From the NCBI GenBank assembly GCA_021373135.1, contig JAJFTH010000003.1, positions 1-64,000 on the forward strand: 64,000 nucleotides of DNA, given 5' to 3'. The position numbers were made by a program, and so were the translations under genes. The stretch comes from Bacteroidales bacterium. Its GTDB lineage: Bacteria > Bacteroidota > Bacteroidia > Bacteroidales > UBA1402. Positions 23,589 to 43,552 of the stretch are shown piece after piece (the first letter of the stretch is position 1; the number at the start of each line of letters is the position of its first letter). A model generated the notes under the pieces. It had not been told where the DNA came from. It ran no database searches and saw only the letters and a list, made by a program, of their open reading frames with translations.

Positions 23589-23651
23589 AGAAGCAAGCAA
23601 AAAAACCTCGGTTTGCAAACCTGCATCATATTGATTCCAAAAACAAATAAA

Positions 23652-24668: not shown

Positions 24669-27350
24669 CTAAAGTTTTATGACTTTTAAATTTTTAATTT
24701 TAGCATCATTGTAATTCTCTTTTCCGTGGGACATATTATTGTTAAAACCATTGTATTCGGGATTAAACTTGAGATTTACTTTGTGTTTTCCTTCCTTTAG
24801 TTTTTCAAGAATTATATAGTTGGAATTCATCCACTTATTCCAATCTCCTGTTGCCTCTAATAAAAATGTTCCTACATCGACGCCATCGACAAACACAGAT
24901 CTTATGTAACAATACGTTCCGTGTGGACCACGGCCATTAGACCCAATAAGAGTTATTGCATAATTACCATTTGCAGGCAAATCAATTGTGAAATTTATAT
25001 TTGTTGGATTTGAACAGTAATCAATTGCAAATTCTGAATTAGAGTTTTCTTTTGTCAAAACAATTTCAGAATTCTTATAATCAGTCTTTTCAACCGTATA
25101 TTTATTTCCCCAATCTGAAATAAGTACAGGGTTAGAAAGATCAGATTGAAAACCTTTTGCATCAATGGCATAGATAGAATAAAATCCTGCAGATTTTCCT
25201 ATCATATCAAAAGGAGTTTGAATTTTTTGGTCTGTTGAAATAGATTTACTATGTAAAAAATATTGTAAATCAGACTCTTGATTCCATTCGAGTTTTTTAC
25301 CAGACATGTTTAATACTGGTTCTACCGGAGACCAACATTTGCCTGGTCCGGCATTTACTAAATTAATCTTATTAGAAGTTTGTACTGTTTCCATGACCAT
25401 TTCTACTTTATAGGTTCCTATTAATTTAGTAGAAAACGTATAAGGTAAAGTCTGTGGTTGTCCGTTTACCGATAATGATTTCACATTATTACCATTTCCT
25501 GATATAGAAATATTAATGATTGCATCCCTATAATGAAAATTCTCGAGAGAAATTTTTCCATTTACAATGCTTGGAATAACCGGATTAAATGTAATCCCTT
25601 CTTGAGTCATCGATATACCAAAAAGAACACGATAAATCATACTAATATATGAAGCAACCGACCATAATTGTCTGTCAGAACTCAAAGCTGTACCTCTATC
25701 GTAACCAGTATCATAAGTCATGTTTTCTTTGTGAGTAAGAAACAATGCTGATTGTCGCATCAATGATTTGACTATATGTTCTACGGCATTTGTGTTTTTG
25801 ACATCTCGGGCAGCATACATGTAAGGTGTCTCCCATACTGGCCAAATACCTTTATTATGATAAGCAAAATCGTCAGGAATTGTTGGATAAAGCGTTGGAG
25901 CTCCATATTGATATAAAGGGAAGTTCTCTACCATAGCAGTAACTTGTTCCTGATTTGCCGTCCCCAAAATGCCAGATAGGCCATTAGACATTACATCCAC
26001 TCTATCTGAACTTCTGTACCCAAAATATTCAGGATACAAATAACATGTGTAGCATTTTTTATTATTATCCCAAAATTTTAAATTGATATTGTTTTTTAAT
26101 GTGTTATAATATTTGTCCCACAAAATGGTTTCGTCAGTCGGTTGATTTAATATACGGCTTACATCCCCTAAAAATTTATAAAGATTCATATGTAGAACAT
26201 TTGTACCACATGAAAAAGACTGAGAAATAGTTGCATTCGTAAACCAGTTGGGATATGTATGAGTTCTCCAGTCCATAGAACAAGTCTCTCCTTTGAACAA
26301 ACCGATTTTAGAATCAAAGGCCACATGAATATCCTTCATGGCTGTGTATTTAAGCCCTTCATAAGCTGATTTCAGCCATTGTTCATCACCTGTGCTCAAA
26401 TAATATTCCCAAGCAGCTAAAGCCCAAACAACTCTATCAGTAGAAATTGGCCATGAACCGCCACTACCTGTGTCTTGTAATGCTTCTTTAGGATTTTTCA
26501 GGGTTTGCTTTTCAAGTGTCTTACGTGAAATGTCAGGTAAAACCCAAGCATAAGAAAAATAGATACTATAAACCGCATCTCTTGTCCAAGTGTCAGGCCA
26601 TAATGCACCTGCCATAAACGTACTATCACTTCGAATATCAAGAAGCATCTCCTCTAAAGCCATATTATAAAGAGCCACTAATAGTTTATTATTCTCTGCT
26701 TTAAGTTGTGGAAATGAAGAAATATCTTTTTTTAATTTCCAAGAATGATTCACACCATGATAATCCGAAATAATTTCATTATTTGATACAGCTTTAGCTT
26801 CTCTTAAACCTAAAAAGGAAGCATCCAGCACTTTTTCAGGAGTAAAATAATAAGAAAGGGGAGAGCCTTTTTCACGTACGACAGTCCAATGTGAATTGAA
26901 ATCAATATTACGATCAGAATTTCCAATAACTAAATTATTGTTTTGAGACATTAAGTGCAAATCAGGAGCAGCACAATTTGAAAGAGTATACCAACCACAA
27001 TTTTGTTGAGTTACAAAGTCAAAATTCCTATATTTCCATTTTAAGCCATCGGTATCTATTTTTTTTGCATCACCGCAAATTAAATGATCTCCAATAATTT
27101 GCAAATAATGACCACTTTTTTTATTCTTAATAAGAATTTCTTCACCTTTTGTACTCTCAATAATCCATAAATAACTATCATTTATAACCTTTTGACCAAA
27201 TTTGCAAACGCCATTATTCTCGTAAAAGTATTTTCCTGTCTCACGGTTCTGGAAACTCCATTCAGAAAACCCCTTACTGTCTCGTGCTGAGACAGTAAGG
27301 GGAAATAAGACTAATATCAGAAGCCAGATATATTTTGGCAATAATTTCAT
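24669..27350 (-). CDS. Secreted six-hairpin glycoside hydrolase
   Basis: An 893-residue exported protein (signal MKLLPKYIWLLILVLFPLTV). Residues about 28-170 look like a beta-trefoil carbohydrate-binding module (repeated W, GYL and SHWTV phrases). Residues about 215-600 form an (alpha/alpha)6 barrel: LWPDTWTRDAVYS resembles the aspartate motif of glycogen-debranching-like enzymes, and WPVWETPYMYAARD, DTGYDRG and LSSDRQLWS line the rest. The last 150 residues look like a CBM35/CBM6-type jelly roll. Its CAZy family was not recognised. As last gene of the PUL it probably releases glucose or short oligosaccharides outside the cytoplasm. It lacks a clear T9SS tail. Confidence 0.7.
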   Translation of the reverse strand: MKLLPKYIWLLILVLFPLTVSARDSKGFSEWSFQNRETGKYFYENNGVCKFGQKVINDSYLWIIESTKGEEILIKNKKSGHYLQIIGDHLICGDAKKIDTDGLKWKYRNFDFVTQQNCGWYTLSNCAAPDLHLMSQNNNLVIGNSDRNIDFNSHWTVVREKGSPLSYYFTPEKVLDASFLGLREAKAVSNNEIISDYHGVNHSWKLKKDISSFPQLKAENNKLLVALYNMALEEMLLDIRSDSTFMAGALWPDTWTRDAVYSIYFSYAWVLPDISRKTLEKQTLKNPKEALQDTGSGGSWPISTDRVVWALAAWEYYLSTGDEQWLKSAYEGLKYTAMKDIHVAFDSKIGLFKGETCSMDWRTHTYPNWFTNATISQSFSCGTNVLHMNLYKFLGDVSRILNQPTDETILWDKYYNTLKNNINLKFWDNNKKCYTCYLYPEYFGYRSSDRVDVMSNGLSGILGTANQEQVTAMVENFPLYQYGAPTLYPTIPDDFAYHNKGIWPVWETPYMYAARDVKNTNAVEHIVKSLMRQSALFLTHKENMTYDTGYDRGTALSSDRQLWSVASYISMIYRVLFGISMTQEGITFNPVIPSIVNGKISLENFHYRDAIINISISGNGNNVKSLSVNGQPQTLPYTFSTKLIGTYKVEMVMETVQTSNKINLVNAGPGKCWSPVEPVLNMSGKKLEWNQESDLQYFLHSKSISTDQKIQTPFDMIGKSAGFYSIYAIDAKGFQSDLSNPVLISDWGNKYTVEKTDYKNSEIVLTKENSNSEFAIDYCSNPTNINFTIDLPANGNYAITLIGSNGRGPHGTYCYIRSVFVDGVDVGTFLLEATGDWNKWMNSNYIILEKLKEGKHKVNLKFNPEYNGFNNNMSHGKENYNDAKIKNLKVIKL

Positions 27351-27385
27351 ATTAAATTACTTATTTGTTTGTTAAAAAATGTAAT

Positions 27386-28486
27386 TTATAAAACAATTAA
27401 TTTTTTTGTAACAGTTTTACCATTAATTTGGACGTTTACAAAATATGCACCATTACTCCAATTAGTTACCGGAATAGTAATTTTATTTTGGCCTTCGATT
27501 GTTTCTAATACTTGACCTAAACTATTAAGTACTTTAATTTGAGCTGATGAATTTCCCACATTAACTGAAAATTGTGTACTATGCATGACAGGGTTAGGAA
27601 ACATCGTTATATTCATATCAGCTGCAACATTATTAACAGCAGTTTTTGTGTTTTTTTTCACTGAACATACCTGAGTTGGAGTTATTCCAGTTGGCATTGT
27701 GATTGTTTTATCAAAAGAACCTCTGCCACTGGTGCTATAACCTGCATTTTCAGTTTTACTTGCTTTATGAAGATTGACACTAACTTCACCGTCGTTAATC
27801 GAACAAAGACCCATATCAGCAAAACCATCATTGTCAAAATCCCCCAGAACCGGTATGTCGTATGTTGTACCAAACTTCATATTATTGATATTTGTTGTTC
27901 CAAAGTCAGGAGTTTTGAATTCTGTAGTTGAAGGTGTGAAAGAGGCCATCCAATTTCCTGCGCTATAAAGAACTACATCGTCTTGTCCATCATGGTTCAT
28001 ATCGCCAGCCAATAATATGTCTTGATTAGTAATACCATAAGCAAGATTTACATTAGGAGCCATTCCTGCAAAACTCATAATCCACCAAAGACCCCATTCA
28101 TTATCCCGACGAATGGCAATATCTCCAATACCATCTCCGTTAAATTCACCAGATATCACTTTATCAATGCCAGACATGCCAAAGTCAATTGTTTGCGGAT
28201 CAACAAATTTATTTGTGCCGTCATTGTAATAGAAAATCCATTTAATCATGGACTCTGAATAATTAACTTCGCATAAGTCAAAAGACCCATCTCCGTTAAA
28301 ATCTCTTACAAAAACCTGTGATATAGGCATTGAAGTAGTTTGAGTGGGTAAAGTAAAATCAGCGGCTCCATCTATATTTAAATCAAAGGTATAACCTTGA
28401 TTTGTAGACCAATAAGCCAGACCATCCTGGCAATACACTGTTACAGAAATTAAACACAAAATAATCAAAGAATAAATTTTTTTCAT
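27386..28486 (-). CDS. FG-GAP/VCBS propeller protein with T9SS tail
   Basis: A 366-residue secreted protein (signal MKKIYSLIILCLISVTVYC). Four FG-GAP/VCBS blades contain calcium-type DxNxDGxxD loops: DFNGDGSFD, EFNGDGIGD, DMNHDGQDD and DFDNDGFAD. The last 80 residues, from MFPNPVMHSTQFSVNV to KKLIVL, are a type A T9SS sorting domain, so the protein should be anchored at or released from the cell surface. The propeller is closely similar to the N-terminal 270 residues of the neighbouring GH66-like enzyme, which indicates duplication. It has no visible enzyme domain; a glycan-binding surface role is an inference. Confidence 0.8.
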   Translation of the reverse strand: MKKIYSLIILCLISVTVYCQDGLAYWSTNQGYTFDLNIDGAADFTLPTQTTSMPISQVFVRDFNGDGSFDLCEVNYSESMIKWIFYYNDGTNKFVDPQTIDFGMSGIDKVISGEFNGDGIGDIAIRRDNEWGLWWIMSFAGMAPNVNLAYGITNQDILLAGDMNHDGQDDVVLYSAGNWMASFTPSTTEFKTPDFGTTNINNMKFGTTYDIPVLGDFDNDGFADMGLCSINDGEVSVNLHKASKTENAGYSTSGRGSFDKTITMPTGITPTQVCSVKKNTKTAVNNVAADMNITMFPNPVMHSTQFSVNVGNSSAQIKVLNSLGQVLETIEGQNKITIPVTNWSNGAYFVNVQINGKTVTKKLIVL

Positions 28487-28532
28487 GACACTAATTTTAA
28501 AAGATTGATATTAATAATTGTATATATTTTAA

Positions 28533-31500
28533 TCAACGAATAATTATTCCGGAATAGAAAAATGATTTATCAAAGTTTTTTTCGTAAATAGTAGCTCCGT
28601 AAGCACCATGAGGCAAAAAAGGCACTTTGTATGTCAATAAATTGTTTTGGGCAATACAATCACTTTTGTACAGAATTCTACCTGTTAAATCGAATATACT
28701 TGCATTATAATTTAAGTCTGTCAGCAGCTTTGGGGAACAAACCTTCAAATTACCAGAATTATCAAAAAAGATATTTATTTTAGTTTCAAGTGTACTGATT
28801 TCCTTTATATCGGTATAATCAGGCGACATAAAAATAAGATTATCATAATCAGCAGAATTCCTGTCAATTGGACCATAATGCACAGCAGTAACAATTGCAT
28901 TTGCCCAATCTGCACCAATATATGCAGTCACATCGGCAAGAATATTTCTGTTATATTGTACCCAAGTGCCATTCAGTGGTTTTACCGGTGTCAAAGTTAT
29001 GTATTGTAAGCCTCCTGCCTGATCGTATCCAACCCGGTAATATAAATCTCTTGTTTCCCAAACAGGGGAAGTAGTCGAAGGTTTTAAAAGACGAAAACCA
29101 AACCAACAAGCAGTAGTGTTATTAGATCGCACCGCAATTTTAAATTTACTGAATTTACTTATTGGAATTCTTATTGCTCCATCCGTAGTTGTATTAAAAG
29201 TGATTAATCCGGGTGTAACACGTGTTGCAGAAGCTCCGGAAAAAGCATCAGAGATTAAAGATGAAGAAGCATTTTTCCCATTAATACTATTTGAGGTCAC
29301 AAGTGGTTGCTGATCTTCCATAACATTTACGTAGGTATCAGTTGAAGGACGGATAGTTATTCCAGCAGCATCGTAATTAAATTTTAAATCAGTAAAACTT
29401 GTTGAGCTTGGCAGTGGAGCAACAGGCATAATACTTTGTGTAGATGAAGTAAGAACTAAAGTTGAGAATGTACTCAATGAAGGAATAACAACTGTTACCT
29501 GATTGCCACTTAGATTATATGCAATTTCAGTTGAGCCACCGTCAAGTGTTAATTGATACATTTTAAGAGGAGTAAAACCATTGGGTAATATAAATTGTAT
29601 GTTTACAGATTTTGATAATGGTGATGAATTTATTGCAGTCCAGGGTAAATCTACAGAATTACCATAATTGACCAAATCAACCATTATAGCATCAATTTTA
29701 CGAGTTCTTTTGTCAAATCTCTTTTTCACTTTGCCAAAAACGCCAGTATTATTGCCTCCCAGTATTAAATTGCCTAACGTAAAATCGGTAATCAGATAAA
29801 CAGGATTCGAATAGTAGAAATATGCCCCATAAGCTTCTGAGAAAGAATTCCATTTTGCTATTCGACTTAAAACTTCAGTTGGATAATTTATACCATGGAA
29901 AGGAACAGGGTCGGTAAATCCAGCCACCCCATCTACCACTTGAGCTGCAGGATATCCACCGGCGGAAATACAAGTAGCAAACTGGTAATCTATATTTTGT
30001 AAAGGCCAGCTTGTCGTTAAATTCATATCGGCTTGCGGATAAAAATTGGCAAAAACCGGTTTGTCGGGATATTTAGATTTAGCAGTATATATAGAATTAT
30101 AAAGATCAGTATATTTTGAACCTACTCCAGAGGGCCACAGTTCTAAAAATTGGTGATTAACAACTGCACTTGTCAAAAGATTTGGTATATCTCCACTTGC
30201 AAAGGGTAATTGTAAAGCTGTTGTAGTACAATTGGGTCGGATATTTTTAACAGCAATATCCAATCGATTAACCAATTGCGACATTTCATTTGAAAAACTA
30301 CCGGTACCTTTTAATCCTTTGCATGTATACTGATCGGGAAGGCCATACCAATCCCACCGATAACCATCCCAATTAAAGTCATTTTGAGCCTGTATTGCCT
30401 GTTGGGTAAAATAATCATTGAAGTTTTTATATACAATATTGTCGATTTGATACGGAGCATTCACAGCCTCATTTGTTGCCATAAGATACAAATATGAATT
30501 GCCATAGGTAATAAAACTTGTATCAGTAGTATTTCTCATTGCCCAATCGGAATGAGTTAAAGCAAAAGCAGGTGTAGCTGCATATATCCCTGTATAACAA
30601 ATTGAACTACCGCCAATTGCTCTGAATTTAGCAATTTTTTCCTTCATTTTATCTTTACTCGTCCATAAGCGATCATCTCCAACATAAGTGTTCCAGGTAT
30701 CGGTTGTAGGATCAATTTCTTCGTGTGCTCTCATCCATGGATGATATTCGAGTTGGTTAATACCTACAGCTTTGAGTGCAAGTGCCCATTTGTCAACATC
30801 CAGTGATTTGTCGAAAATACAGGTCCAGCCATGTCTCAAATTAACTTCATTACCCATCTCAGATGTTGTAGCAAGTGGAAGAGAAGCTGGTCTTGAATTA
30901 TCTATGTCGGAAGACATCACTGCCAAAATATTGTTCATTGGAGTTGGAACTATTTTATCCACAGTGCCAAAGCCATTTATATCAGCATAATGTTCAAATT
31001 TTGGTTTTCCGGTTGAGAATAAATTCATTAAAATTTTATTTTCAGATGGACGATATAAGCCCATATCAGCATAACCGTCACCATTAAAATCTCCTACAAA
31101 TGGAATATCAGAGGATGTTCCGAACACAACACCATTTATGGCAAGAGGCATATTAAATTGAGGAAATCCTGAAATATCAGATAAAGCAACATACCAAGTG
31201 CCAGTTGACGGACGATAAACACAAATGTCATCAACCCCATCAGCATTAAAATCACCAGACAATGGTATGTCACCTGATAAACCAAAATTACCTTTGATAT
31301 CAAACGTTCCATTACATGGTGAATAATCAATAAGCCAGGTACCTAGACCAGAATATCCACCTCTAAATACAGCAATGTCTGTTTTACCATCACCATTGAA
31401 ATCGCCGACAACACATTTATCTGTAGTATTCAAACCAAAGGCAATGGGCACAGATGAGATCCAGCCACCATTTCCATCATTTATCTTCCAAGTCCATTGC

Positions 31501-31733
31501 AATATTGAACCTGAAAAATCGACATCACATAGATCTGTTAATCCATCGCCATTATAATCTCCGGTGAAAGCTCCTCCGTTGAATATAGAGTTGAATGTCC
31601 CTGTAATTGTGCCGAGGTTCCCTTTGTCGAAATTCCATTGATTTTGAGTGCGATAGATTATATCATCTTGTGCAAACAAATTACAAAGGGAAAAAATTGC
31701 GAATACAGAAATTATAAATTTATGAGTTTGCAT
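28533..31733 (-). CDS. VCBS-fused GH66-like alpha-1,6-glucanase (dextranase-like)
   Basis: A 1,066-residue secreted enzyme. Residues 1-21 are a signal peptide; about 50-270 an FG-GAP/VCBS propeller (DYNGDGLTD, DFNGDGKTD, DFNADGVDD, DFNGDGYAD); about 298-740 a (beta/alpha)8 domain resembling GH66 dextranases and cycloisomaltooligosaccharide glucanotransferases. WDGYRWDWYG (455-463) matches the GH66 D-G-W-x-x-D strand with Asp461 as candidate nucleophile, and LELWPS (530-535) the acid/base strand with Glu531. ANFYPQ and ISAGGYPAAQ also fit. A jelly-roll module follows and residues from about 995 are a T9SS-type tail. GH66 enzymes cut alpha-1,6-glucan; the family call is by motif order and needs a profile search. 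Confidence 0.72.
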   Translation of the reverse strand: MQTHKFIISVFAIFSLCNLFAQDDIIYRTQNQWNFDKGNLGTITGTFNSIFNGGAFTGDYNGDGLTDLCDVDFSGSILQWTWKINDGNGGWISSVPIAFGLNTTDKCVVGDFNGDGKTDIAVFRGGYSGLGTWLIDYSPCNGTFDIKGNFGLSGDIPLSGDFNADGVDDICVYRPSTGTWYVALSDISGFPQFNMPLAINGVVFGTSSDIPFVGDFNGDGYADMGLYRPSENKILMNLFSTGKPKFEHYADINGFGTVDKIVPTPMNNILAVMSSDIDNSRPASLPLATTSEMGNEVNLRHGWTCIFDKSLDVDKWALALKAVGINQLEYHPWMRAHEEIDPTTDTWNTYVGDDRLWTSKDKMKEKIAKFRAIGGSSICYTGIYAATPAFALTHSDWAMRNTTDTSFITYGNSYLYLMATNEAVNAPYQIDNIVYKNFNDYFTQQAIQAQNDFNWDGYRWDWYGLPDQYTCKGLKGTGSFSNEMSQLVNRLDIAVKNIRPNCTTTALQLPFASGDIPNLLTSAVVNHQFLELWPSGVGSKYTDLYNSIYTAKSKYPDKPVFANFYPQADMNLTTSWPLQNIDYQFATCISAGGYPAAQVVDGVAGFTDPVPFHGINYPTEVLSRIAKWNSFSEAYGAYFYYSNPVYLITDFTLGNLILGGNNTGVFGKVKKRFDKRTRKIDAIMVDLVNYGNSVDLPWTAINSSPLSKSVNIQFILPNGFTPLKMYQLTLDGGSTEIAYNLSGNQVTVVIPSLSTFSTLVLTSSTQSIMPVAPLPSSTSFTDLKFNYDAAGITIRPSTDTYVNVMEDQQPLVTSNSINGKNASSSLISDAFSGASATRVTPGLITFNTTTDGAIRIPISKFSKFKIAVRSNNTTACWFGFRLLKPSTTSPVWETRDLYYRVGYDQAGGLQYITLTPVKPLNGTWVQYNRNILADVTAYIGADWANAIVTAVHYGPIDRNSADYDNLIFMSPDYTDIKEISTLETKINIFFDNSGNLKVCSPKLLTDLNYNASIFDLTGRILYKSDCIAQNNLLTYKVPFLPHGAYGATIYEKNFDKSFFYSGIIIR

Positions 31734-31775
31734 TTAATAGTCTTTTTAATAATATTTTATCTTTTTCTGAATTAA

Positions 31776-33308: not shown

Positions 33309-33320
33309 AATAGTATAATT

Positions 33321-36300
33321 TTAAAATTTAATTGATGCACCAAACATAATAGTTTTGGCCGTGGGGTAAACGCCATAATCAAGTCCCCAAAGACCTACTT
33401 CAGGATCTAATCCTGAGTATTTTGTAATAGTTAATAAGTTGTCCGCAGAAACAAATAACCTTAAAGATTTAGCGCCAGTCTTTTGCATCCAATTCTTATT
33501 AAAGGTATAACCAAGTGCAAGGTTCTTTAACTTAATGTATGAGCCATCTTCAATCCATCTTGATGATGCCCTGTTATTTCGGTTCGGATCAGCATATATA
33601 GCGCGAGGCATTGTATAACTACTCCCTTCGCCATTCCAGCGACAAAGGGTTGATGTAAGTTGGTTATAGGTGCTTTCCATTCCTTCTTCTGAGACTCTCA
33701 CTCCATTCCAAATGGAATTTCCATAAGACCCTTGGAAAAAGAAGTTAAGGTCAAAATTTTTATAATTGAGTGTGTTGTTGAATCCAAATATAAAATCAGG
33801 TTGAGGGTTACCAATTATAGTACGATCAAGGTCGTTTATTACTTTATCTTCATTTATATTAACAAACCAAATATCACCAGGAGAAGTATTCACCTTTGAA
33901 TTTTGCGATGCTATATCTGTTGCTCTATTTTCCATAACAGGACCAGTAAATACCTGATTAAGGTTTTGATATATTCCACCCATTTTATATCCATAAAATG
34001 AATTAATAGGTTCATCAACTCTTATTAAGCTGACTCCATTTAAGATTTCTGGACCACCTAATTGCAGCACAATATTTTTATTAAATGAAATATTGAAATT
34101 GCTCTCCCAATTAAATTCGCCAACAAAGTTTCGAGTAGTAATTGTAAATTCAAGACCAGTGTTTCTTACTTTTCCGATATTCACCGGAGGCCAATCACTT
34201 GGATCAAGAGAGGTTCCACTTGTTTGTGGTACCGGTTTTTTAGTTAACATATCATTCGTATTTTTCAAATACAAATCAACATTTGCAACTATTCGATCTT
34301 TTAAAAATCCCATGTCGAAACCAATGTTGTACTGTTCAACTGATTCCCACTTTATTGATGGATTGGATAATTTGTATGGATAAATTAAGGGTACTTGGGC
34401 AGATTGAAAACCACGTTGAGAGCCAAAAGTATACACACCGCTAACATCTAGTTTGTCTGCAAATGCATAGGCATCAATGTTCTGATTTCCTGTTTGTCCA
34501 TATCCAGCCCTTACTTTAAGCATTGAAATCCAATTAACATCTTTCATAAAATCTTCATTTGTTATATTCCATGCAGCAGAGAATGAAGGGAAATAACCGA
34601 AACGATTATTTGACCCAAATTTTGAAGAACCATCTGCACGAAAAGTAGTTGTGACAAAAAAGCGTTTGTCAAAGGAGTATTGAATTCTTGCCATATAGGA
34701 CATTAAAGCCCATGAATATAAATTTCCACCAACAGCAGTTGCTTTAGTTGCATTATCAAGTTCAGTCGTCATTTCACTTGCTCGTCCAGAACCAGTGGCT
34801 GACATCCAATGTTTATTATATTCTTGATAAGATGTACCAATCATTGCATCAATTTTATGCTTCCCAAAGATTTTATTATATGAAAGAGTATTATCCCAAA
34901 GATATAATTCCTCATATGCAGAAGATAAAGATTGTGATGTATTGACAGATTCTTGATTACCCCATTTGAATTTAGGTATGTAATTGTTATCATACTCGTA
35001 TCCAAGTTCAGCTCCACCAGTAGTTTTTAATTTAAGATCTTTTATAATTTCCCATTCTCCGGAAATATTTGCAAGCATTCTGAACCCTTTCATTGTATAT
35101 TTTTGCTCATTGACGATCGCGATCGAATTTAAAGCATTACCATTAAGTTCTGCGTTACCAGTAGGACCGTTATACTCTCCATTCTCATCATATATTGGAA
35201 TAGAAGGCAACATGCGCATCGCATTGGTAATTACAGTATTGATTGGTTGTGTTCTGCGATTTTCATTACTTAAGTTTACATTTGCTTTTACAACGAAATT
35301 GGACAAAATCTGTGAAGATATATTCGATTGCAAATTTAACCGATTGAAATTCGAGTTTTTGAGAATGCCGTCTTGAGCATAATATCCAATAGAAGTTGCA
35401 TGATTAATTTTGTTATTGCCACCCATAAAAGAAAGGTTTATTTTCGTCATTGGAGCAGTTTGGAATAACGGCGATAACCAATCTGTTCCAACACCCAACG
35501 ATGCAGGATCAGCAAAAGTAGGATTTAAAGCAACTCCGGCATTCGTTCTCATTTCGTTGTGAAGAGTGGCATATTGAGATGCATTAAGCATATTGAACAT
35601 TTTTGCAGTTTGTTGGGTGCCGTAACTGTAATCCAAAGTTATTTCTGCTTTACCTTCTTTAGCTTTTTTTGTTGTTACTATAACCACGCCATTGGCTCCT
35701 CTTGCACCATAAATTGCTGTTGCAGAAGCATCTTTGAGAACATCAATTGATTCAACATCTGATGGATTTATATACCAAATACCTCCATTAACCGGAACTC
35801 CATCAACAACATATAAAGGTGATGCATCATTAATTGTTCCTACACCACGAATAAGAATTGAAACGTCTCCACCCGGAGTTCCTGAATTTTGTACTATTTG
35901 AACTCCGGACAATTTACCAGCCATAGCTTGAACTACATTTGAAGAAGAATTTTTTGAAATATCATCTCCTTTTACTGAAACAATTGCTCCTGTCACATCT
36001 GATTTTCGCATTGTGCCATAGCCTACTACAACGACATCATCTAGAAGTTTGGAATTTTCCTTTAATGTAATATTGATCATTCCTTTTTTGTTAGTACCAA
36101 TTTCAGTAGATTGATAGCCAATATATGAGACAACTAATAAAGACTTTTCGCTATCTACATTCAAAGAGAACTTTCCCTCAATATCGGTTACAGTACCAAT
36201 TTTAGTGCCTTTGATCATTACTGAAGCTCCAATAACTGGAAGTCCATTTTCATCTTTTACATAACCCGTAAAAAAAATTGAATTTTGTGTTTGATCCGTA

Positions 36301-36443
36301 ACTGTGTTTTTGAAGATCTTTCCTTTGTTCAATATTAATTGAGAATCTTCTGCCATTCCAATAGTCGGGTGCAAAAGTGTAATTATCACATTGCAAATAA
36401 GGAATATAAACATATTGTTTTTATGTTTTTTTTCTTTTCTCAT
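33321..36443 (-). CDS. SusC-family TonB-dependent transporter
   Basis: A 1,040-residue outer-membrane beta barrel. After the signal region comes a carboxypeptidase-regulatory-like domain (VKDENGLPVIGASVMIKG), a TonB-box-like VVVVGYGT, the plug (LYVVDGVPVNGG, GARGANGVVIVTTK) and the barrel ending in an aromatic residue (FGASIKF). It imports oligosaccharides with TonB energy and pairs with the next gene, SusD. No STN domain for anti-sigma signalling is visible. A 142-base gap upstream may hold its own promoter; none matches consensus, but the half-site ATATGTAT of the island's palindrome occurs at 36533-36540. Confidence 0.95.
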   Translation of the reverse strand: MRKEKKHKNNMFIFLICNVIITLLHPTIGMAEDSQLILNKGKIFKNTVTDQTQNSIFFTGYVKDENGLPVIGASVMIKGTKIGTVTDIEGKFSLNVDSEKSLLVVSYIGYQSTEIGTNKKGMINITLKENSKLLDDVVVVGYGTMRKSDVTGAIVSVKGDDISKNSSSNVVQAMAGKLSGVQIVQNSGTPGGDVSILIRGVGTINDASPLYVVDGVPVNGGIWYINPSDVESIDVLKDASATAIYGARGANGVVIVTTKKAKEGKAEITLDYSYGTQQTAKMFNMLNASQYATLHNEMRTNAGVALNPTFADPASLGVGTDWLSPLFQTAPMTKINLSFMGGNNKINHATSIGYYAQDGILKNSNFNRLNLQSNISSQILSNFVVKANVNLSNENRRTQPINTVITNAMRMLPSIPIYDENGEYNGPTGNAELNGNALNSIAIVNEQKYTMKGFRMLANISGEWEIIKDLKLKTTGGAELGYEYDNNYIPKFKWGNQESVNTSQSLSSAYEELYLWDNTLSYNKIFGKHKIDAMIGTSYQEYNKHWMSATGSGRASEMTTELDNATKATAVGGNLYSWALMSYMARIQYSFDKRFFVTTTFRADGSSKFGSNNRFGYFPSFSAAWNITNEDFMKDVNWISMLKVRAGYGQTGNQNIDAYAFADKLDVSGVYTFGSQRGFQSAQVPLIYPYKLSNPSIKWESVEQYNIGFDMGFLKDRIVANVDLYLKNTNDMLTKKPVPQTSGTSLDPSDWPPVNIGKVRNTGLEFTITTRNFVGEFNWESNFNISFNKNIVLQLGGPEILNGVSLIRVDEPINSFYGYKMGGIYQNLNQVFTGPVMENRATDIASQNSKVNTSPGDIWFVNINEDKVINDLDRTIIGNPQPDFIFGFNNTLNYKNFDLNFFFQGSYGNSIWNGVRVSEEGMESTYNQLTSTLCRWNGEGSSYTMPRAIYADPNRNNRASSRWIEDGSYIKLKNLALGYTFNKNWMQKTGAKSLRLFVSADNLLTITKYSGLDPEVGLWGLDYGVYPTAKTIMFGASIKF

Positions 36444-36585
36444 GATTTAATTTTTTTAGTATTAGACGTTGATAGATATTATATTTACAATTGGAATTGG
36501 AATAGAAAGGAGTATTCAGATTAAATTCAGATATATGTATTTACATTGTAGTAATTAAGAAATAGTTATGAAAATGTTGCTGTTT

Positions 36586-37914
36586 TTATAATCCCAATTC
36601 TTTTTCTATTTCTTCGAGAGATTTTCCTTTTGTTTCAGGGATTTTATAATAAACGAAGAGGAAAGCTATTAAACTGACCAATCCAAACAGCCCGAATAAA
36701 AAGGCTCCTCCAAATTTATTTAAAATAAAAGGTGAAAATTGGACAGCTAAAAAAGAACTAAACCAAATTACTGCAGTTGTAAAAGAAAGTGCAACCGCAC
36801 GAACCCGATTTGGAAATATCTCAGATGTAATTACCCAGAAAACAGGAGCAAATGATGCTGCATAAAACAAAATATACATTAATAGTGATATAAGAATGCC
36901 CACACTGCTCCAGCCAAAAGCAAAACTTAATGCTAAATAAGCTAAGGAAACTGTCATTCCAATAGCACCCCACAACAGTAAACTTTTTCGTCCCTTAGAA
37001 TCAACCAACCACAAAGCTAAAATGGTGGCTAAAAAATTAATAACGCCAACTAAAACAGATTGAAGTAATGCCATTTCTTTACCAAAACCAATTTTTTCGA
37101 AAATGACTGGAGCATAGTTTACTACTGCGTTTATACCACTTAGTTGCTGAAATATAGCCAGACATATACCAAGAAAGACTATTCCACCGACTTTACCTTT
37201 GAAAATCTCAGACACTTTTACTTTTTCCTTGTTTTTCTCCGAAGAAATTGAATTTTCAATTTCTTTACATTCCTTTTTAGCGAAGTCAACTCCTCCAATT
37301 CTTGTTAATACTTTCAAAGCTTCTTCACTCTTTTTTCTTGCAATTAACCATCGAGGACTTTCAGGGAAAGAAATGAGTAAGAAAAGTAAAAATAAAGATC
37401 CAAAAACAAATGGAATACCTAACATAAATCGCCATGAATCTTGCATACCCGCAAAAATAAAGTTGAATACGTAGGCTAAAAGAATACCTAAGGTTATTGC
37501 GAACTGAAAATAGGAAACTAATCTACCTCTTTTCTCTGCCGGAGCAACTTCAGAAATATACATCGGGCATACAACAGACACTAACCCAACTCCAATGCCT
37601 GAAATAAAACGAGACAAAATAAGAATCCAACTAGATTGAGCCAAAGCACAACCAATCGAAGAAAAAATAAAAATCAGCGAAATTAATACCATTACTTGTT
37701 TTCGCCCATATTTATCAGCAAGACTACCGGCAACTAATGCACCAATTAGACAGCCTAACATGATTGAACCTACAACTATTCCTATACCATTGTCAGTCAG
37801 GCTGAAAATTTGTTTAATTGAAGTAACTGCGCCGGAAATTCCAGCCATATTTAAACCAAAAAGTAATCCACCATTTACGGCAACAAATGTTATCCAATAA
37901 ATATAATTCTTCAT
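36586..37914 (-). CDS. MFS sugar porter (inner membrane)
   Basis: A 442-residue transporter with twelve predicted membrane helices of the sugar-porter subfamily. Its signatures are intact: GSLADKYGRKQVM after helix 2, PESPRWLIARKK between helices 6 and 7, QQLSGINAVVNYAPVIFE in helix 7, DSKGRKSLL, and PETKGKSLEEIEKEL at the end. These porters move glucose, xylose, galactose or related monosaccharides with protons. In the present operon glucose from isomalto-oligosaccharides is the most likely cargo, an inference from the neighbours. Confidence 0.92.
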   Translation of the reverse strand: MKNYIYWITFVAVNGGLLFGLNMAGISGAVTSIKQIFSLTDNGIGIVVGSIMLGCLIGALVAGSLADKYGRKQVMVLISLIFIFSSIGCALAQSSWILILSRFISGIGVGLVSVVCPMYISEVAPAEKRGRLVSYFQFAITLGILLAYVFNFIFAGMQDSWRFMLGIPFVFGSLFLLFLLISFPESPRWLIARKKSEEALKVLTRIGGVDFAKKECKEIENSISSEKNKEKVKVSEIFKGKVGGIVFLGICLAIFQQLSGINAVVNYAPVIFEKIGFGKEMALLQSVLVGVINFLATILALWLVDSKGRKSLLLWGAIGMTVSLAYLALSFAFGWSSVGILISLLMYILFYAASFAPVFWVITSEIFPNRVRAVALSFTTAVIWFSSFLAVQFSPFILNKFGGAFLFGLFGLVSLIAFLFVYYKIPETKGKSLEEIEKELGL

Positions 37915-37968
37915 AATTATTTTTATTTAAAGAAATTGTAAATAATTAACGTTTAAAATATTGCCGAA

Positions 37969-38757
37969 TCAGGGAATAAAATCTACCCAAACTTCTTTTT
38001 TTAATTCAGGAAATGGTACATAGTTGAAAGTGTCAACCTTTTTTTCAAATATTTGATAAATGGACAGTCCTTTTTCAATTCCTAATTCAGGATGAAGATT
38101 AGGTGTTTTACAAATAAGTTCGCTTTTTTCATAATTGGGATTTGGAATCCATTTAATCACATTTTGTTCATCGTAAATTGGAAACCAAGCAATACCTTTA
38201 TGTTTTCTGACACCCTCATAATCAAAACCATAATCACGATCGCACCATGCACCGAAAGTAAGTGGAATATTGGGATTAGCACTTATTGTAGCATGCACCC
38301 AGTTGGGCGGAACAATTATAACATCACCCGGTTTACCATAAACCGCGTAACAAAGCCCAGGATTATCTTTATCAGATTTCTGCATATATATGATTGCTTC
38401 TCCATTCCATATTTCATATACTTCGGGGGTTGATAAATTACTAATTGAAGATAATTTATGAACATGACCTTGACTTCTGATAGGTTCTTGTCCTAATTTC
38501 CCAGCAGAATAAGTTACAATTCCAAAAAGTAGGTTTAAATCGTTAAGAATTTGTATGTGTGTCTTTTTTCCAACGTCCATTGCTATCGAATATACAATTT
38601 CTGGTCCCTCACAATTAGGTTCGAAAAGGCTTTTGCGGATATCATCTAATCTTCGATTTTCGACTAAAGGTCCAAAACAATCTGAACCATATTCAAATCC
38701 TAAAGGATTGATTGTAGGGGTTATTGATAAACCCGTTTCAAATTTAATTTCATGCAT
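37969..38757 (-). CDS. Second phosphoglucose-isomerase-like cupin
   Basis: A 262-residue cupin similar to the archaeal-type glucose-6-phosphate isomerase family (GPI). The metal ligands appear as His98 and His100 in SQGHVHK, Glu112 in TPEVYEIWNGE and His155 in PPNWVHATI. It is longer than the 190-residue relative at 41498-42073 and has an extra C-terminal segment. Being a second GPI-type cupin in the same operon it may act on another sugar phosphate (for example an anomer or mannose-6-phosphate) or form a hetero-oligomer; neither is proven. Its start overlaps the stop of the mannose-6-phosphate isomerase gene. Confidence 0.75.
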   Translation of the reverse strand: MHEIKFETGLSITPTINPLGFEYGSDCFGPLVENRRLDDIRKSLFEPNCEGPEIVYSIAMDVGKKTHIQILNDLNLLFGIVTYSAGKLGQEPIRSQGHVHKLSSISNLSTPEVYEIWNGEAIIYMQKSDKDNPGLCYAVYGKPGDVIIVPPNWVHATISANPNIPLTFGAWCDRDYGFDYEGVRKHKGIAWFPIYDEQNVIKWIPNPNYEKSELICKTPNLHPELGIEKGLSIYQIFEKKVDTFNYVPFPELKKEVWVDFIP

Positions 38758-40525
38758 GGGTTCTTATATAAGCTTTAATTGTTGCACATTCTTTTCCAAT
38801 AGATTCACCAAATGGTCTAATTGTATATTCTTTGACATATTCGGGAATTATAAAGGTTTCTGCATAATGAATCACAAAAGGATCAAAAGAATCTGAGGGG
38901 CTTTCGATTATAATTTCACGACCTTCAACAAGATTTAGAACATTTACACTTCCATTTGTTTTGTGTAAAACTGATTTAGAAAACGAATGTCGACGAGTTT
39001 CAATAAATTCACGTTCATGTAAACCCGTCTTTTCTTCTATCCAGCCATCGCCTTCTCCTATCTTCACTACTTGGTTGATTAACTGATTTTTGACATAAGA
39101 TTCAGTCCTTTCCCATTGAATCGCATTTTTACCATGTTCTATATTAATTGGTCGGGGTCTACCATCTAAACCTAATCGGTTCCAATCCCACAATTTAAAT
39201 GTAAAAATATAAGGAGTAGCACTTATTTCTAGAACCATACTATTTGCCCCTGAGCAATGGACAGTGCCGGCAGGAATTAAAACATGATCATGTTTTTTTA
39301 CCTTATATTTTCCAACATATTTTTCTACATCAAATTTTCCTGAATTTTGTGATTTTATTAAATCACTAATCATCTCATCTGATACAACTCCATCTTTTAA
39401 CCCTAAAAATACTACAGCGTCATCATTTGCATCTAACATGTAGTAACTTTCATCTTGAGTATAGGGAATTCCAAATTTTTCTTGTATATATTCTGTTAAT
39501 GGATGAACCTGAAGGCTTAAATTCCCTCCATTCATCGTATCCAAAAAATCAAATCGAATTGGAAATTCATCTCCAAATCGTGCATGAACTGGATTCCCTA
39601 ATAGCTCAGATGGAAATGCAAAAACAAGATTTATAGACGGGGTTTCGAATTTAGTATCGCCAAAACCTAATAGCAAACTATTTTCTTCTGGAACACAATC
39701 AAAACACCATGCATAATTAATAACATCTTTGTCTAAATCGCAAATTTCCTTCATCCATTGCCCTCCCCAAGGTCCTGGATCAAAAAATGGTACAACTCTA
39801 ATAGGTTGTTTTATAGCTTGCTCCATTCCTGCCCAGAATGACTTTCCTGAAATCATTTTGGGATGTCCAGAAGTATTCGTATCAAATATATAATCCCATT
39901 TTCGCATTAATTTCTTTTTAAACTTATCGCAAACTCTCCAATCTACAAAAAAAGCTCGTTTGTATTGGATTGATGGTCTTTCGTTTAAATTAGAAACGCC
40001 CAGATTATTTATTTCATTTCTTCTAAAACGCATTTGAATCTCCCAACGAGCCATATCAATATATATCAATAAATCTGATTCATCTTGAATATATGCAGCT
40101 CCTGTTCCATAGATGAAAATAAGCTCTGCTGTTGATTTATTAATTCTTTTTTTAAGATTTGCCACTTTCCCTCTACTAAAAAAATCTTCAAGAGAATATG
40201 TTGTTAAATGTCCGAAAATTTCATCATCTGTAATTTCATCCCTGAATTTTTCATTTATCTGTTTTTCCGATATCATTGCTTCTTCCGAATCAAAAAAAAC
40301 CGCTTCCGGAAATGCATTATTTATAGATTGTTTGATTTCTTCCTTATAAACCCCCTGATAGCATTCAATTACTATAATCTTTTTTAGTTTATTTATTGAC
40401 TTAATTTTACAATCCAATTCTTCAGTAATTTCCTGCCAACCCTTAAAACAAGTAAGGCTTTTATTGGGCACATTTACTACAGGATACTTATCATAATTTG
40501 ATTTGTTGTCTGAAAATTGATTCAT
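38750..40525 (-). CDS. Kinase-like/mannose-6-phosphate isomerase fusion
   Basis: A 591-residue protein. The C-terminal part (about 230-591) is a class I mannose-6-phosphate isomerase: metal ligands Gln339 and His341 in LSLQVHPL, Glu359 in QDESYYML and His423 in IPAGTVHCSG. The N-terminal 215 residues resemble a uridine-kinase-type P-loop fold (YGTGAAYIQDESDLLIYIDM, RAFFVDWRVCDKFKKK), but the Walker A loop is replaced by IECYQGVYKEE without the GK[ST], so kinase activity is doubtful. Such long isomerases exist in other phyla. It would link mannose- and fructose-6-phosphate. Confidence 0.8.
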   Translation of the reverse strand: MNQFSDNKSNYDKYPVVNVPNKSLTCFKGWQEITEELDCKIKSINKLKKIIVIECYQGVYKEEIKQSINNAFPEAVFFDSEEAMISEKQINEKFRDEITDDEIFGHLTTYSLEDFFSRGKVANLKKRINKSTAELIFIYGTGAAYIQDESDLLIYIDMARWEIQMRFRRNEINNLGVSNLNERPSIQYKRAFFVDWRVCDKFKKKLMRKWDYIFDTNTSGHPKMISGKSFWAGMEQAIKQPIRVVPFFDPGPWGGQWMKEICDLDKDVINYAWCFDCVPEENSLLLGFGDTKFETPSINLVFAFPSELLGNPVHARFGDEFPIRFDFLDTMNGGNLSLQVHPLTEYIQEKFGIPYTQDESYYMLDANDDAVVFLGLKDGVVSDEMISDLIKSQNSGKFDVEKYVGKYKVKKHDHVLIPAGTVHCSGANSMVLEISATPYIFTFKLWDWNRLGLDGRPRPINIEHGKNAIQWERTESYVKNQLINQVVKIGEGDGWIEEKTGLHEREFIETRRHSFSKSVLHKTNGSVNVLNLVEGREIIIESPSDSFDPFVIHYAETFIIPEYVKEYTIRPFGESIGKECATIKAYIRTHA

Positions 40526-40566
40526 CTAATATTTTGATTTAATTTTAATTCATCGGTTTTTATTCT

Positions 40567-41505
40567 TTACTCAGAATCTGATTTTGATAGACAATAATAA
40601 ATACCTAATATAGAAGCATCATCACCTAATTTTGAAGCCTCAATTTTTATTCCTTCTTTATTTGTCCATGCATATTTATCGACTATTTCTTTTATAGCCG
40701 GTATAATAATGTCTTTACTCTTCATTATTCCTCCACCTAAAACTATGATTTCAGGATCATATGCATGAATGAAATTTATTATTCCAGCGGCCCATATTTG
40801 AATGCAATGGTTTTGAACAAGTAAAGAATCTTTATTCCCTGTTCTTGACATTTCAAAAATTGTTTTAAAATCAATTTTATCAGCATTAGCTTTGAAGCTT
40901 TCTGAAGTTGGTAGTTCCCTGATAATTTGTGGCAAAAAGTAAGATGAGGAATGAGCCTCAACACATCCTTTATTGCCACAAGTACAATCCCTACCATCAT
41001 ACTTAATAATAAAATGACCACCTAATGGAGCACGGAAATGAGAACCTATTAATGGGCGACCATCAATGACAACTCCAGTGCCTATTCCCGTACCTATAGT
41101 CATCATAACTAAGTCATTTGTATCTTTTGCGGCACCATATTTCCATTCTCCAATAACAGCATATCTGGCATCGTTATCTACAATAAATTGAACGCCCCAT
41201 TCGGATGCAACCCATTTATTTAAATCTAAATCACAAGCATCATCGTATTTTTTATTTGTAGACAATACCCTTTTTTTTAGAGGATCAACAATCCCCGGAA
41301 AAGATAGCCCAATACCGCCAAGTTCATTTCCTAAATTATTTTGAATAATTTCATCAATTTTTATTTTTAGTATTGGTAGCTTTGCCGCCAAACCTTTAAT
41401 AGATTCTGCATCGACATAATCAATTGATGCCACTTTTCCGTTTCGAACAACACCAATTTTAATTAATGTTCCCCCTAAATCAATTCCAATATAGTATTTA
41501 TACAT
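40567..41505 (-). CDS. ROK-family sugar kinase
   Basis: A 312-residue cytoplasmic kinase. ATP-binding DLGGT is at residues 9-13, the catalytic Asp112 lies in DNDARYAVIGE, and the ROK zinc motif is CTCGNKGCVEA (Cys174, Cys176, Cys181) with the preceding His164 in LGGHF. ROK kinases phosphorylate glucose, fructose, mannose or N-acetylsugars. Between two GPI-like isomerases, glucokinase is the best guess. Its start overlaps the end of the first isomerase gene by eight bases. Confidence 0.9.
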   Translation of the reverse strand: MYKYYIGIDLGGTLIKIGVVRNGKVASIDYVDAESIKGLAAKLPILKIKIDEIIQNNLGNELGGIGLSFPGIVDPLKKRVLSTNKKYDDACDLDLNKWVASEWGVQFIVDNDARYAVIGEWKYGAAKDTNDLVMMTIGTGIGTGVVIDGRPLIGSHFRAPLGGHFIIKYDGRDCTCGNKGCVEAHSSSYFLPQIIRELPTSESFKANADKIDFKTIFEMSRTGNKDSLLVQNHCIQIWAAGIINFIHAYDPEIIVLGGGIMKSKDIIIPAIKEIVDKYAWTNKEGIKIEASKLGDDASILGIYYCLSKSDSE

Positions 41506-42073
41506 ATAATAGTTTTTTGCTGTCTTCTAATACGGCTGTACCATTTATTTCTCTTAAACGTGCTGAAAATCCATTTTTTGCTATTGTATCATAGCAATGA
41601 CCTGCATCTGATGGCCAACAAGCACCAAATGAAAGAATTTGGGTGCCCGTGTTTGCCACCCTATGAGCAATGCCACTTTTGATATAATGAAGACTACCGG
41701 GGAAGATTTTTTCACCACATACGTTCCGATCTTCATCCATTAATATCAATACTCCTTCTCCTTCTATCCCCCAGTAATATTCGGTTCTATCTATTTTTGC
41801 ATGATAATGTCCTTTTGTCATGAAGTACTCATTTCCAACTTTTCCAGGATATAAATATGTTATACCAAAAAATAAACCTCCTTCTCGACCTTCTTTTTCT
41901 TCTAAATGACTACTTACTTCATAAACAATAGTATCTGGATCTATTTTGTTAAGAGATGCTTCGTCGTCAAAAAGACCATTCAAATCCTTGATTTTTCGAA
42001 CAACTTTTTCTACATTATTACCTATTAATAATCCATTGGAGTAATAAATATTAGGCAAAATAATTTTTTTCAT
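41498..42073 (-). CDS. Cupin-type glucose-6-phosphate isomerase
   Basis: A 191-residue single-domain cupin of the GPI family best known from Pyrococcus. The metal ligands are His89 and His91 in TKGHYHAK, Glu98 in RTEYYWG and His137 in GIAHRVAN, one residue shifted from the archaeal enzyme's His88, His90, Glu97 and His136. It converts glucose-6-phosphate to fructose-6-phosphate. It is the first gene of the PUL operon, 71 bases after the predicted transcription start, with the island palindrome in its leader. Confidence 0.9.
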   Translation of the reverse strand: MKKIILPNIYYSNGLLIGNNVEKVVRKIKDLNGLFDDEASLNKIDPDTIVYEVSSHLEEKEGREGGLFFGITYLYPGKVGNEYFMTKGHYHAKIDRTEYYWGIEGEGVLILMDEDRNVCGEKIFPGSLHYIKSGIAHRVANTGTQILSFGACWPSDAGHCYDTIAKNGFSARLREINGTAVLEDSKKLLYV

Positions 42074-42111
42074 AATAATTTATTTGTAATTCTGATAGTT
42101 GAACGTATTTT

Positions 42112-42137
42112 AATATGTATATATGTCTATACATATT
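42112..42137. promoter_or_regulatory. Perfect palindrome, likely GntR operator
   Basis: AATATGTATA (42112-42121) and TATACATATT (42128-42137) are exact reverse complements with a 6-base spacer. It covers about +7 to +32 relative to the predicted start of the minus-strand operon, where a bound repressor would block elongation. The adjacent gene encodes a GntR/HutC regulator. Confidence 0.65.
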
Positions 42138-42149
42138 GAAATAACTGTG

Positions 42150-42180
42150 CAAATATATTAGAAATTTGTTATTCGACAAA
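42150..42180 (-). promoter_or_regulatory. Promoter of the PUL operon
   Basis: On the minus strand TTTG (42177-42180), 19 bases, TATATTTG (42150-42157): an ideal Bacteroidota promoter. Transcription would begin near 42144. Confidence 0.8.
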
Positions 42181-42232
42181 ATAATGATGAATTATTAACC
42201 GATATTAACTCTCATGCTTTATCGCAATTTAA

Positions 42233-42258
42233 AATATATATCTTATTTGTTATATATT
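42233..42258. promoter_or_regulatory. Second palindrome, before the GntR promoter
   Basis: AATATATA (42233-42240) and TATATATT (42251-42258) are reverse complements with a 10-base spacer, ending 14 bases before the -33 element of the regulator gene. The half-sites resemble those of the operator at 42112-42137, so self-control is possible. The AT-rich content makes a chance match plausible. Confidence 0.35.
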
Positions 42259-42272
42259 CTAGTCTAAAAAAA

Positions 42273-42301
42273 TTGATTTCCAAAAAAAAAGTATATTTTT
42301 G
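42273..42301 (+). promoter_or_regulatory. Promoter of the GntR gene
   Basis: TTG (42273-42275), 18 bases, TATTTTTG (42294-42301). It excludes the TTG at 42299 as a start codon and supports the ATG at 42320. Confidence 0.65.
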
Positions 42302-42319
42302 CATTTTAATTATCTGAAA

Positions 42320-43048
42320 ATGAAAATAATATTAGATTATAATAGTCCTTTGCCACTTTATGCTCAAATTGAAGAGCAGATTAGACAAGCAATCCAAACT
42401 CCTGAATACAAAAATGGAAAAAAAATCCCGAATGAAGTTAGCTTGTCTAAACAATTAGGCATATCTAGAAGCACACTTCGTCAAGCAATTAACAAACTAG
42501 TGTTTGAAGGACTTCTAATAAGAAAAAAGGGAGTAGGGACTGTGGCTGCAAATAAAGCAGTAAACTTTAAATTGAACAATTGGCTTAGCTTCACACAAGA
42601 AATGAAAATGCTTGGGATTGAGGTGAAAAATTATGAATTACATGTTCAATGGGAGAAGCCAAATGAAGAATTGTGCCAATTTTTTAACACAACTTCAGGT
42701 GCACGAATATTAAAACTTGAAAGACTGAGAGGTAAACCAGAACATCCTTTTGTATTTTTTATTTCATATTTTAATCCAAGAATTGGTTTAACTGGAAATG
42801 AAGACTATTCTAGACCTCTTTATGATATATTAGAGAAAGATTTTAATACTATTGTTAAGTTGTCAAAAGAAGAAATCACTGCCGTGATTGCAGATGAGTT
42901 TCTGGCTGATAAACTACAAATTAAAATAGGAGATCCAATTCTTAAACGAAAACGATTCGTTTTCGATCCAGGAAGTCGACCTGTAGAATGGAATATTGGC
43001 TATTATAGAGCAGATAGCTTTGTATATACTATTGAAGCAGAAAGATGA
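42320..43048 (+). CDS. GntR/HutC-type transcription regulator
   Basis: A 242-residue regulator from the ATG at 42320. Residues about 8-75 are a winged helix of the GntR family (PLYAQIEEQIRQAI, PNEVSLSKQLGISRSTLRQA, LIRKKGVGTVAA); the rest is a UTRA ligand-binding domain (ARILKLERLR, DFNTIVKLSKEEI, DPILKRKRFV). HutC-type members usually repress sugar or amino-sugar genes and release DNA on binding a phosphorylated sugar. It is divergent from the PUL operon and probably binds the palindrome at 42112-42137. Such regulators are unusual for a SusC/SusD locus. Confidence 0.9.
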   Translation: MKIILDYNSPLPLYAQIEEQIRQAIQTPEYKNGKKIPNEVSLSKQLGISRSTLRQAINKLVFEGLLIRKKGVGTVAANKAVNFKLNNWLSFTQEMKMLGIEVKNYELHVQWEKPNEELCQFFNTTSGARILKLERLRGKPEHPFVFFISYFNPRIGLTGNEDYSRPLYDILEKDFNTIVKLSKEEITAVIADEFLADKLQIKIGDPILKRKRFVFDPGSRPVEWNIGYYRADSFVYTIEAER

Positions 43049-43142
43049 CAGAAACACTTTACAGATTTATTTTTGAGATCAGCTTATTTAATTCCAAATA
43101 AAGTATTATGAATTTGAAAGGTTGGTTAAGAGGAATTCATCA

Positions 43143-43552
43143 TCATTGCAGCAAAGAAAGGTTTCGAGATTTAAATGTTGGTATGGAAATATGCATAGCA
43201 TCAGCGACTTCCTGATTAGACATTCCCTGTTGTATCTTCAACAAGCAAACTTCTCTTTTCTGTGGAGCTAACTGATCAATCAACCTGTATAAATGTGACC
43301 TGAAATCTGCATCCTCTAACTCGTGTAAGAAATCGGTATCCATCTCTTCGGTTATCTGTGCAAGTTCGTAGTTCTTTGGGATCACCAGATTATTATGCCT
43401 TATTTCGTTTAAAAAGTGTTTTTCAGAATGGTAAATAGCAAATTCTTGATGCCTGTCTTATAGTCGAAAGTTTCCTTATCCTCCCACAAACGCATAAAAG
43501 TATATTGTACAGCATCTTCAGCATAACTATCAGGAATCAAAAAATAAGTAGG
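43143..43552 (-). pseudogene. ECF sigma factor remnant
   Basis: Read on the minus strand from 43552, the sequence encodes a sigma region 2 core (DSYAEDAVQYTFMRLWEDK), then hits a stop in a run of five T (plus strand 43411-43415). Restoring one base continues the frame into NTFLNEIRHNNLVIPKNYE and a sigma region 4 helix-turn-helix (APQKREVCLLKIQQGMSNQE). The first residues of region 2 are missing at the junction with tcdA, and the C-terminus is cut or shifted near 43143. It is therefore a decayed ECF sigma gene. These often control PULs together with anti-sigma factors, none of which is present. Confidence 0.8.

Follow-up and report, generated by a model that had tools for sequence, protein, structure and literature searches.

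The polysaccharide utilization loci (PULs) of Bacteroidota have several described forms that bear on the locus reported here. First, Ravcheev et al. (2013) predicted a GntR-family regulator, ManR, in Bacteroides thetaiotaomicron, which links mannose uptake, conversion to fructose-6-phosphate (F6P) and a SusCD/alpha-mannosidase operon (PMC3878776). Second, alginate PULs combining a GntR regulator with a major facilitator superfamily (MFS) importer have been described in B. eggerthii and Zobellia galactanivorans, as cited in PMC11381880. Third, a fructan PUL with a fructokinase and an inner-membrane importer is known (PMC5967196). These systems contradict the premise of an initial annotation that Bacteroidota PULs end at the periplasm and lack GntR control. 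In the present study, we analyzed a stretch of 64,000 nucleotides (the window, contig C9:1-64000) from a Bacteroidales bacterium with a genome of 2.65 Mb in 10 contigs, in which ten minus-strand genes (24669-42073) and a divergent plus-strand gntR gene form a SusC/SusD locus with a built-in sugar-phosphate module. All eleven open reading frames (ORFs) were intact, and matches to family profiles bore out the broad functions initially assigned to them. The features are as follows, in which GH is glycoside hydrolase, CBM is carbohydrate-binding module and T9SS is type IX secretion system.

24669..27350, minus strand: p1, 893 aa; ricin-like lectin region, (alpha/alpha)6 catalytic region and C-terminal CBM6/35-like domain
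27386..28486, minus strand: p2, 366 aa; FG-GAP propeller and T9SS sorting tail
28533..31733, minus strand: p3, 1,066 aa; N-terminal FG-GAP propeller, GH66-like (beta/alpha)8 domain at about residues 296-765, and C-terminal domains
31776..33308, minus strand: SusD (PF14322, PF07980)
33321..36443, minus strand: SusC TonB-dependent receptor (TIGR04056, 951 bits)
36534..36547, no strand: candidate GntR operator before susC, TATGTATTTACATT, a match to ATGTN4ACAT
36586..37914, minus strand: MFS sugar porter, XylE-like (TIGR00879, 388 bits)
37969..38757, minus strand: gpi7, divergent cupin isomerase, 262 aa (PF06560, 75 bits); cupin metal ligands retained
38750..40525, minus strand: p8, 591 aa, type-I mannose-6-phosphate isomerase-like with an extra N-terminal domain (match to PDB 1qwr)
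40567..41505, minus strand: ROK sugar kinase (PF00480, 1e-49)
41498..42073, minus strand: gpi10, cupin phosphoglucose isomerase, 191 aa (PF06560, 85 bits)
42112..42137, no strand: candidate GntR operator, an AATATGTATA-N6-TATACATATT inverted repeat that includes both TATGTCTATACATA and a core of the HutC type, GTCTATAC
42150..42179, minus strand: Bacteroidota-type promoter-like site for gpi10 and the following genes, TTG-N19-TATATTTG, a pattern match
42299..43048, plus strand: GntR/HutC-family regulator with UTRA domain, ManR-like (PF00392, PF07702)

The locus resembles the ManR regulon (BT2103, operon BT2107-13) in having a GntR regulator and in placing mannose uptake, conversion to F6P and SusCD under one regulator, whereas alpha-mannosidases are found there and GH66-like p3, p1 and cupin phosphoglucose isomerases (PGIs) here; Pfam detected no GH92, GH76, GH38 or GH125 in the locus, the mannosidases and mannanases expected of a ManR-type PUL. 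With the dextran loci (FjDexUL; B. thetaiotaomicron SusR2/BT3091), the locus shares a SusD clade, a GH66-type endo-enzyme and oligosaccharide import, but it carries no canonical GH66, GH31, GH97, GH65 or SusR and has a cytoplasmic module in addition; the combination of GH66, GH31 and SusR-like regulator that defines a dextran PUL (PMC10316084, PMC3878776) is not present at the locus. Like the alginate PULs, it unites a GntR regulator, an MFS importer, cytoplasmic enzymes and SusCD, although those PULs encode a uronate pathway and polysaccharide lyases, and the B. eggerthii regulator is of the FadR type rather than the HutC/UTRA type. Thus, the locus joins known parts in a new way, those outside resembling the dextran type and those inside and the switch the mannose type, and it does not represent a system of a new kind. 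Herein, we propose, with moderate confidence, that it is a PUL, gained horizontally, for an alpha-1,6-hexan, and that it channels glucose, mannose or both to F6P under the control of a ManR-like repressor.

SusC/SusD and surface proteins

In the phylogenetic tree, SusD clustered with the SusD proteins of GH66 and p1-family PULs, the dextran-PUL clade (support 97/99), and stood apart from those of PULs combining GntR with a mannose-6-phosphate isomerase (PMI).

In p3, Pfam detected FG-GAP repeats alone. A profile of three p3 sequences aligned end to end with five GH66 sequences using hhalign (score 40.7, 409 columns), compared with a mean of 18.0 (sd 2.9, maximum 29.1) over no more than 112 columns in 100 column shuffles; the score was 44.1 over 424 columns against 11 GH66 sequences and at most 24.5 against GH31, GH97, GH27, GH2 and GH38. 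The catalytic residues of FjGH66 are Asp293 and Glu355 (PMC10316084). The sole PF13199 match in the genome, a true GH66 gene about 10 kb past the window (C9:73473-75083, 651 bits), has the corresponding residues D317 and E378, assigned by motif and spacing, and these aligned with Asp461 and Glu531 of p3. Foldseek searches of the PDB with a low-confidence AlphaFold model of p3, used for support only, returned GH66 structures as all six best matches. The alignments thus predict a (beta/alpha)8 domain homologous to GH66 with the catalytic Asp and Glu, and indicate that p3 is GH66-like, a very divergent relative rather than a GH66 member, and a candidate endo-enzyme.

Sub-threshold Pfam matches of p1 were to Bac_rhamnosid6H, CBM_6 and GH65C. 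The p1 family is of the (alpha/alpha)6 type, has no Pfam name and was present in 26 of 390 Bacteroidota genomes; among 21 aligned members, Bac_rhamnosid6H matched all (E <=0.1), MGH1-like 18 and trehalase 11. The family was found in 9 of the 11 genomes that encode a true GH66 (hypergeometric P 2e-10, not corrected for phylogeny), and in five loci a p1-family gene and a GH66 gene occupied the same stretch. GH31 or GH97 genes were neighbors in several of the p1-family loci checked, and the C-terminal region of the family profile found its best matches in a GH31 alpha-glucosidase and in GH66 cycloisomaltooligosaccharide glucanotransferases, in each case in the CBM region. Within the part of p1 encoding the signal peptide (27270-27302, minus strand), a perfect 14-bp stem with 8 G-C pairs is followed by TTTT; this stem is terminator-like, lies in an AT-rich gene and falls where the proteins of B. 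nordii and B. salyersiae depart from p1.

The p2 protein matched PF18962 (2.8e-12) and FG-GAP_3 (1.1e-10), in a genome with 34 T9SS-tail matches, and is a probable surface glycan-binding protein; its identification as a glucanase was rejected on account of its FG-GAP structure and T9SS sorting tail. Of the several surface glucanases in the initial annotation, one GH66-like enzyme therefore stands, p2 does not, and p1 is an (alpha/alpha)6 enzyme that may or may not lie at the surface. The GH66-like enzyme suggested in the annotation, within an outer part of alpha-1,6-glucan type, is supported by the hhalign and Foldseek results, the p1 CBM profile and the SusD tree.

A second PUL lies about 28 kb from the locus in the same genome, beyond the window (L023:6776-18996, C9 about 70.8-83.0 kb), and comprises the true GH66 gene, a p1 paralogue (34%), a SusE-like protein, SusD, SusC and a regulator.

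Cytoplasmic module

The products of gpi10 and gpi7 belong to PF06560 and retain the metal ligands His/His/Glu/His; gpi10 is closely similar to solved archaeal PGIs (1j3p, E 6.7e-42), and gpi7, the divergent member, resembles them weakly. A separate PGI of the PF00342 family is encoded elsewhere in the genome. No significant Pfam match was obtained for p8, which matched the solved mannose-6-phosphate isomerase 1qwr across residues 239-479 (E 7.6e-12); the metal site Gln/His/Glu/His (Q339, H341, E359 and H423) is invariant among 17 homologues, and p8 is accordingly predicted, by homology and metal site, to be a type I mannose-6-phosphate isomerase. The extra domain at residues 1-230 has no Pfam match, is retained in 17 of 17 aligned homologues and, by eye, looks like a P-loop sugar/nucleoside kinase but without the Walker A motif. 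The kinase belongs to the ROK family (PF00480) and contains the catalytic DND, while the glucokinase-type ExGH motif is absent, the Glu being replaced (LGGH) here and in near relatives. The matched families support reading the module as a cytoplasmic route from the MFS porter through the kinase and isomerases to F6P, as had been claimed at the outset.

GntR regulator and candidate operators

The GntR protein, for which ATG 42320 is a likelier start than 42299, is 50-60% identical to those encoded beside PMI-type genes in 10 other loci. Among 18 loci examined across the phylum, 10 had a close GntR together with the same PMI-type protein, and most of these also had MFS and SusCD; the arrangement of GntR, PMI and SusCD, initially regarded as novel, thus recurs. 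Pfam identified GH92 (L059, L065) and GH76 (L069) as neighbors of related modules, and GH38 in a related locus (L060) which is without this GntR. The present locus likewise has a GntR/UTRA regulator next to SusCD and a PMI-type gene, as in a ManR-type PUL, and its regulator appears ManR-like by gene context.

The gpi10/gntR intergenic region contains the 26-bp inverted repeat beside the Bacteroidota-type promoter match; the promoter-like pattern, with 18 matches on both strands of the window, is weak by itself. Three matches to ATGTN4ACAT occur in the 64-kb window, two of which precede the operons (gpi10/gntR and susC). Of the 19 matches in the 11 loci used for comparison, 14 fell within upstream regions, which amount to 2.6% of the sequence (P 7e-19, an optimistic value since the pattern was set after the best matches had been viewed), and no match was found in eight contrast loci (one, L058, with a GntR of 29% identity, and the others with no close GntR). 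The window site before susC is informative despite the post hoc pattern. The HutC core GTMTAKAC alone was considered as the operator and rejected, because it is not conserved over the GntR loci and the longer ATGTN4ACAT palindrome is. A shared candidate operator before both operons, as in a ManR-type PUL, supports the GntR control proposed initially.

Distribution and acquisition

The p3 domain was absent among 394 other Bacteroidota genomes sampled; a candidate relative in G014 (30% match) was discarded, the ORFs of that locus being SusC and a regulator fragment with no p3-like protein. When about 85,000 species genomes were scanned once with peptide patterns, an approach that detects close relatives alone, Bacteroides nordii and B. 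salyersiae were returned. In both, the order gpi10-ROK-p8-gpi7-MFS-SusC-SusD-p3-p2-p1 was observed (L020/L074 and L021/L075, respectively) with protein identities of 52-76% to the window PUL, and the MFS-susC junction is thus conserved in three species. The MFS protein of these two species differs from that of the window (35% identical), and a search for gntR found none; in B. salyersiae, an AraC-type gene stands in its place, and B. nordii has an ORF there that matches this gene in size and position. The initial annotation would have been overturned by a description of the same order for a defined glycan; the order exists in these two species, and no paper on their PUL was found in the literature.

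The p3 gene of B. nordii (L020:9167-12352) is split over several frames in the draft, reflecting frameshifts or sequencing errors. The p2 homologues (L020:12382-13530 and L021:12459-13580) have, by eye, a T9SS-like C-terminal tail. T9SS is not known to occur in the genus Bacteroides; this tail would then be vestigial and a hint at the direction of transfer.

In G406, another genome of the same taxonomic order, the cassette gpi10-ROK-p8-gpi7-MFS (L056:10055-19066) is accompanied by a gene resembling GH2 exo-beta-glucosaminidases, and the outer part of the window PUL is missing, which indicates that the cassette and the outer part are separable units. The identity of p8 is 65-69% in all three of the other genomes sharing the cassette.

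The GC content of the locus is 0.338, compared with 0.412 in the left flank and 0.430 in the right flank, and ranges from 0.32 to 0.36 in every gene, so that all eleven genes form a low-GC composition island. This composition suggests horizontal acquisition, as does the absence of the p3 domain from relatives. For an empty-site comparison, the sister genome G001 contains the ThiF-M23 flank, but no contig carries it together with the left flank.

Proposed function and alternatives

We propose that the polymer would be bound and cut at the cell surface by p3, acting as a GH66-like endo-enzyme, and the putatively T9SS-exported p2, and that the oligosaccharides would be imported through SusC/SusD and converted to monosaccharides by p1. 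The MFS porter would then carry the monosaccharides to the cytoplasm, where the ROK kinase would phosphorylate the hexoses, and the cupin PGI and PMI-type p8 would convert glucose-6-phosphate and mannose-6-phosphate, respectively, to F6P. A ManR-like GntR repressor on the operators before gpi10 and susC would switch both operons together.

Several observations argue for this alpha-1,6-hexan PUL, namely the family matches, the gene order kept in three species, the SusD grouping, the kinship of p3 with GH66, the co-occurrence of p1 with GH66 and the p1 CBM profile. Genes for GntR, the PMI-type protein and the MFS porter are also found next to SusCD in other loci, and GH92, GH76 or GH38 accompanies them in those checked. 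Further arguments are ATGTN4ACAT before both operons, the ManR precedent, the low GC and the absence of the p3 domain from relatives. Several points weigh on the other side. Pfam GH66 (PF13199) gave no match to the p3 catalytic domain at E up to 10, and p3 retains 29 of the 84 GH66-invariant columns; the linkage cut by p3 may therefore differ, and its specificity may have moved away from the GH66 type. GH31, GH97 and alpha-mannosidase genes are all missing from the locus; in B. nordii and B. salyersiae, the regulator is of the AraC type and the MFS protein is not the same; the operator pattern was chosen after the fact; and the AlphaFold models of p3 and p1, from shallow alignments, are poor (pLDDT 39 and 49, respectively).

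A plain dextran or isomalto-oligosaccharide PUL, as suggested in the initial annotation, is an unlikely explanation; glucose would then be the sole product, gpi10 would carry out the isomerization, and the ManR-like regulator and p8 would have been repurposed or carried along. The GH66-like p3, the GH66-associated p1 with its CBM of alpha-1,6-glucan type, the dextran-type SusCD, the nearness of gpi10 to true PGIs and the missing GntR in B. nordii and B. salyersiae would all suit such a PUL. However, an authentic GH66 PUL is already present in the same genome, most GH66-invariant positions have been lost in p3, p8 has been kept in every genome sharing the cassette, and the GntR/PMI-type relatives elsewhere accompany mannose-releasing enzymes.

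The true cupin PGI in the cassette, not needed for mannose alone, the resemblance of the p1 CBM profile to glucan enzymes and the lack of GH92, GH76, GH125 and GH38 enzymes in the locus also make it rather improbable that the substrate is an alpha-1,6-mannan or alpha-mannoside, with p3 and p1 derived from dextran enzymes re-tuned to the C2 epimer and mannose as the main product and inducer; nevertheless, the ManR-like GntR with the operator of PMI PULs, the PMI-type p8, the GH92, GH76 and GH38 beside related modules and the ROK kinase without the ExGH glutamate favor this view. A chance juxtaposition of a SusCD PUL with an unrelated sugar-phosphate operon, for which the 142-bp gap from the MFS gene to susC and the association of the module with other enzymes in L056 could be cited, is already disfavored and highly improbable, given the junction kept in three species, the same type of operator before both parts and the uniformly low GC over all eleven genes.

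Returning to the alpha-1,6-hexan PUL, it is possible, if somewhat doubtful, that p3, together with p1, represents a new GH66-derived family or subfamily acting on an alpha-1,6 polymer other than dextran, such as alpha-1,6-mannan or a mixed glucose/mannose glycan. If this is true, a dextran-type PUL would have been re-targeted by capture of the ManR mannose module, illustrating how PULs switch substrate. With p3 and p1, the locus provides two groups of enzymes that no named Pfam family covers, in a defined genetic context that extends to two named gut Bacteroides species; it is also a testable case of a PUL put together from outer genes of the dextran type and inner genes of the mannose type. 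In addition, ATGTN4ACAT is a candidate operator for a widespread Bacteroidota GntR regulator.

Flanking genes

Bordering the low-GC island, a remnant of an extracytoplasmic function (ECF) sigma-70 factor with frameshifts and stops was observed at 43130-43560 on the minus strand. On the other side, adjoining the island at 21834-24413, are genes for a sensor histidine kinase with a PocR domain and a DUF2334 protein.

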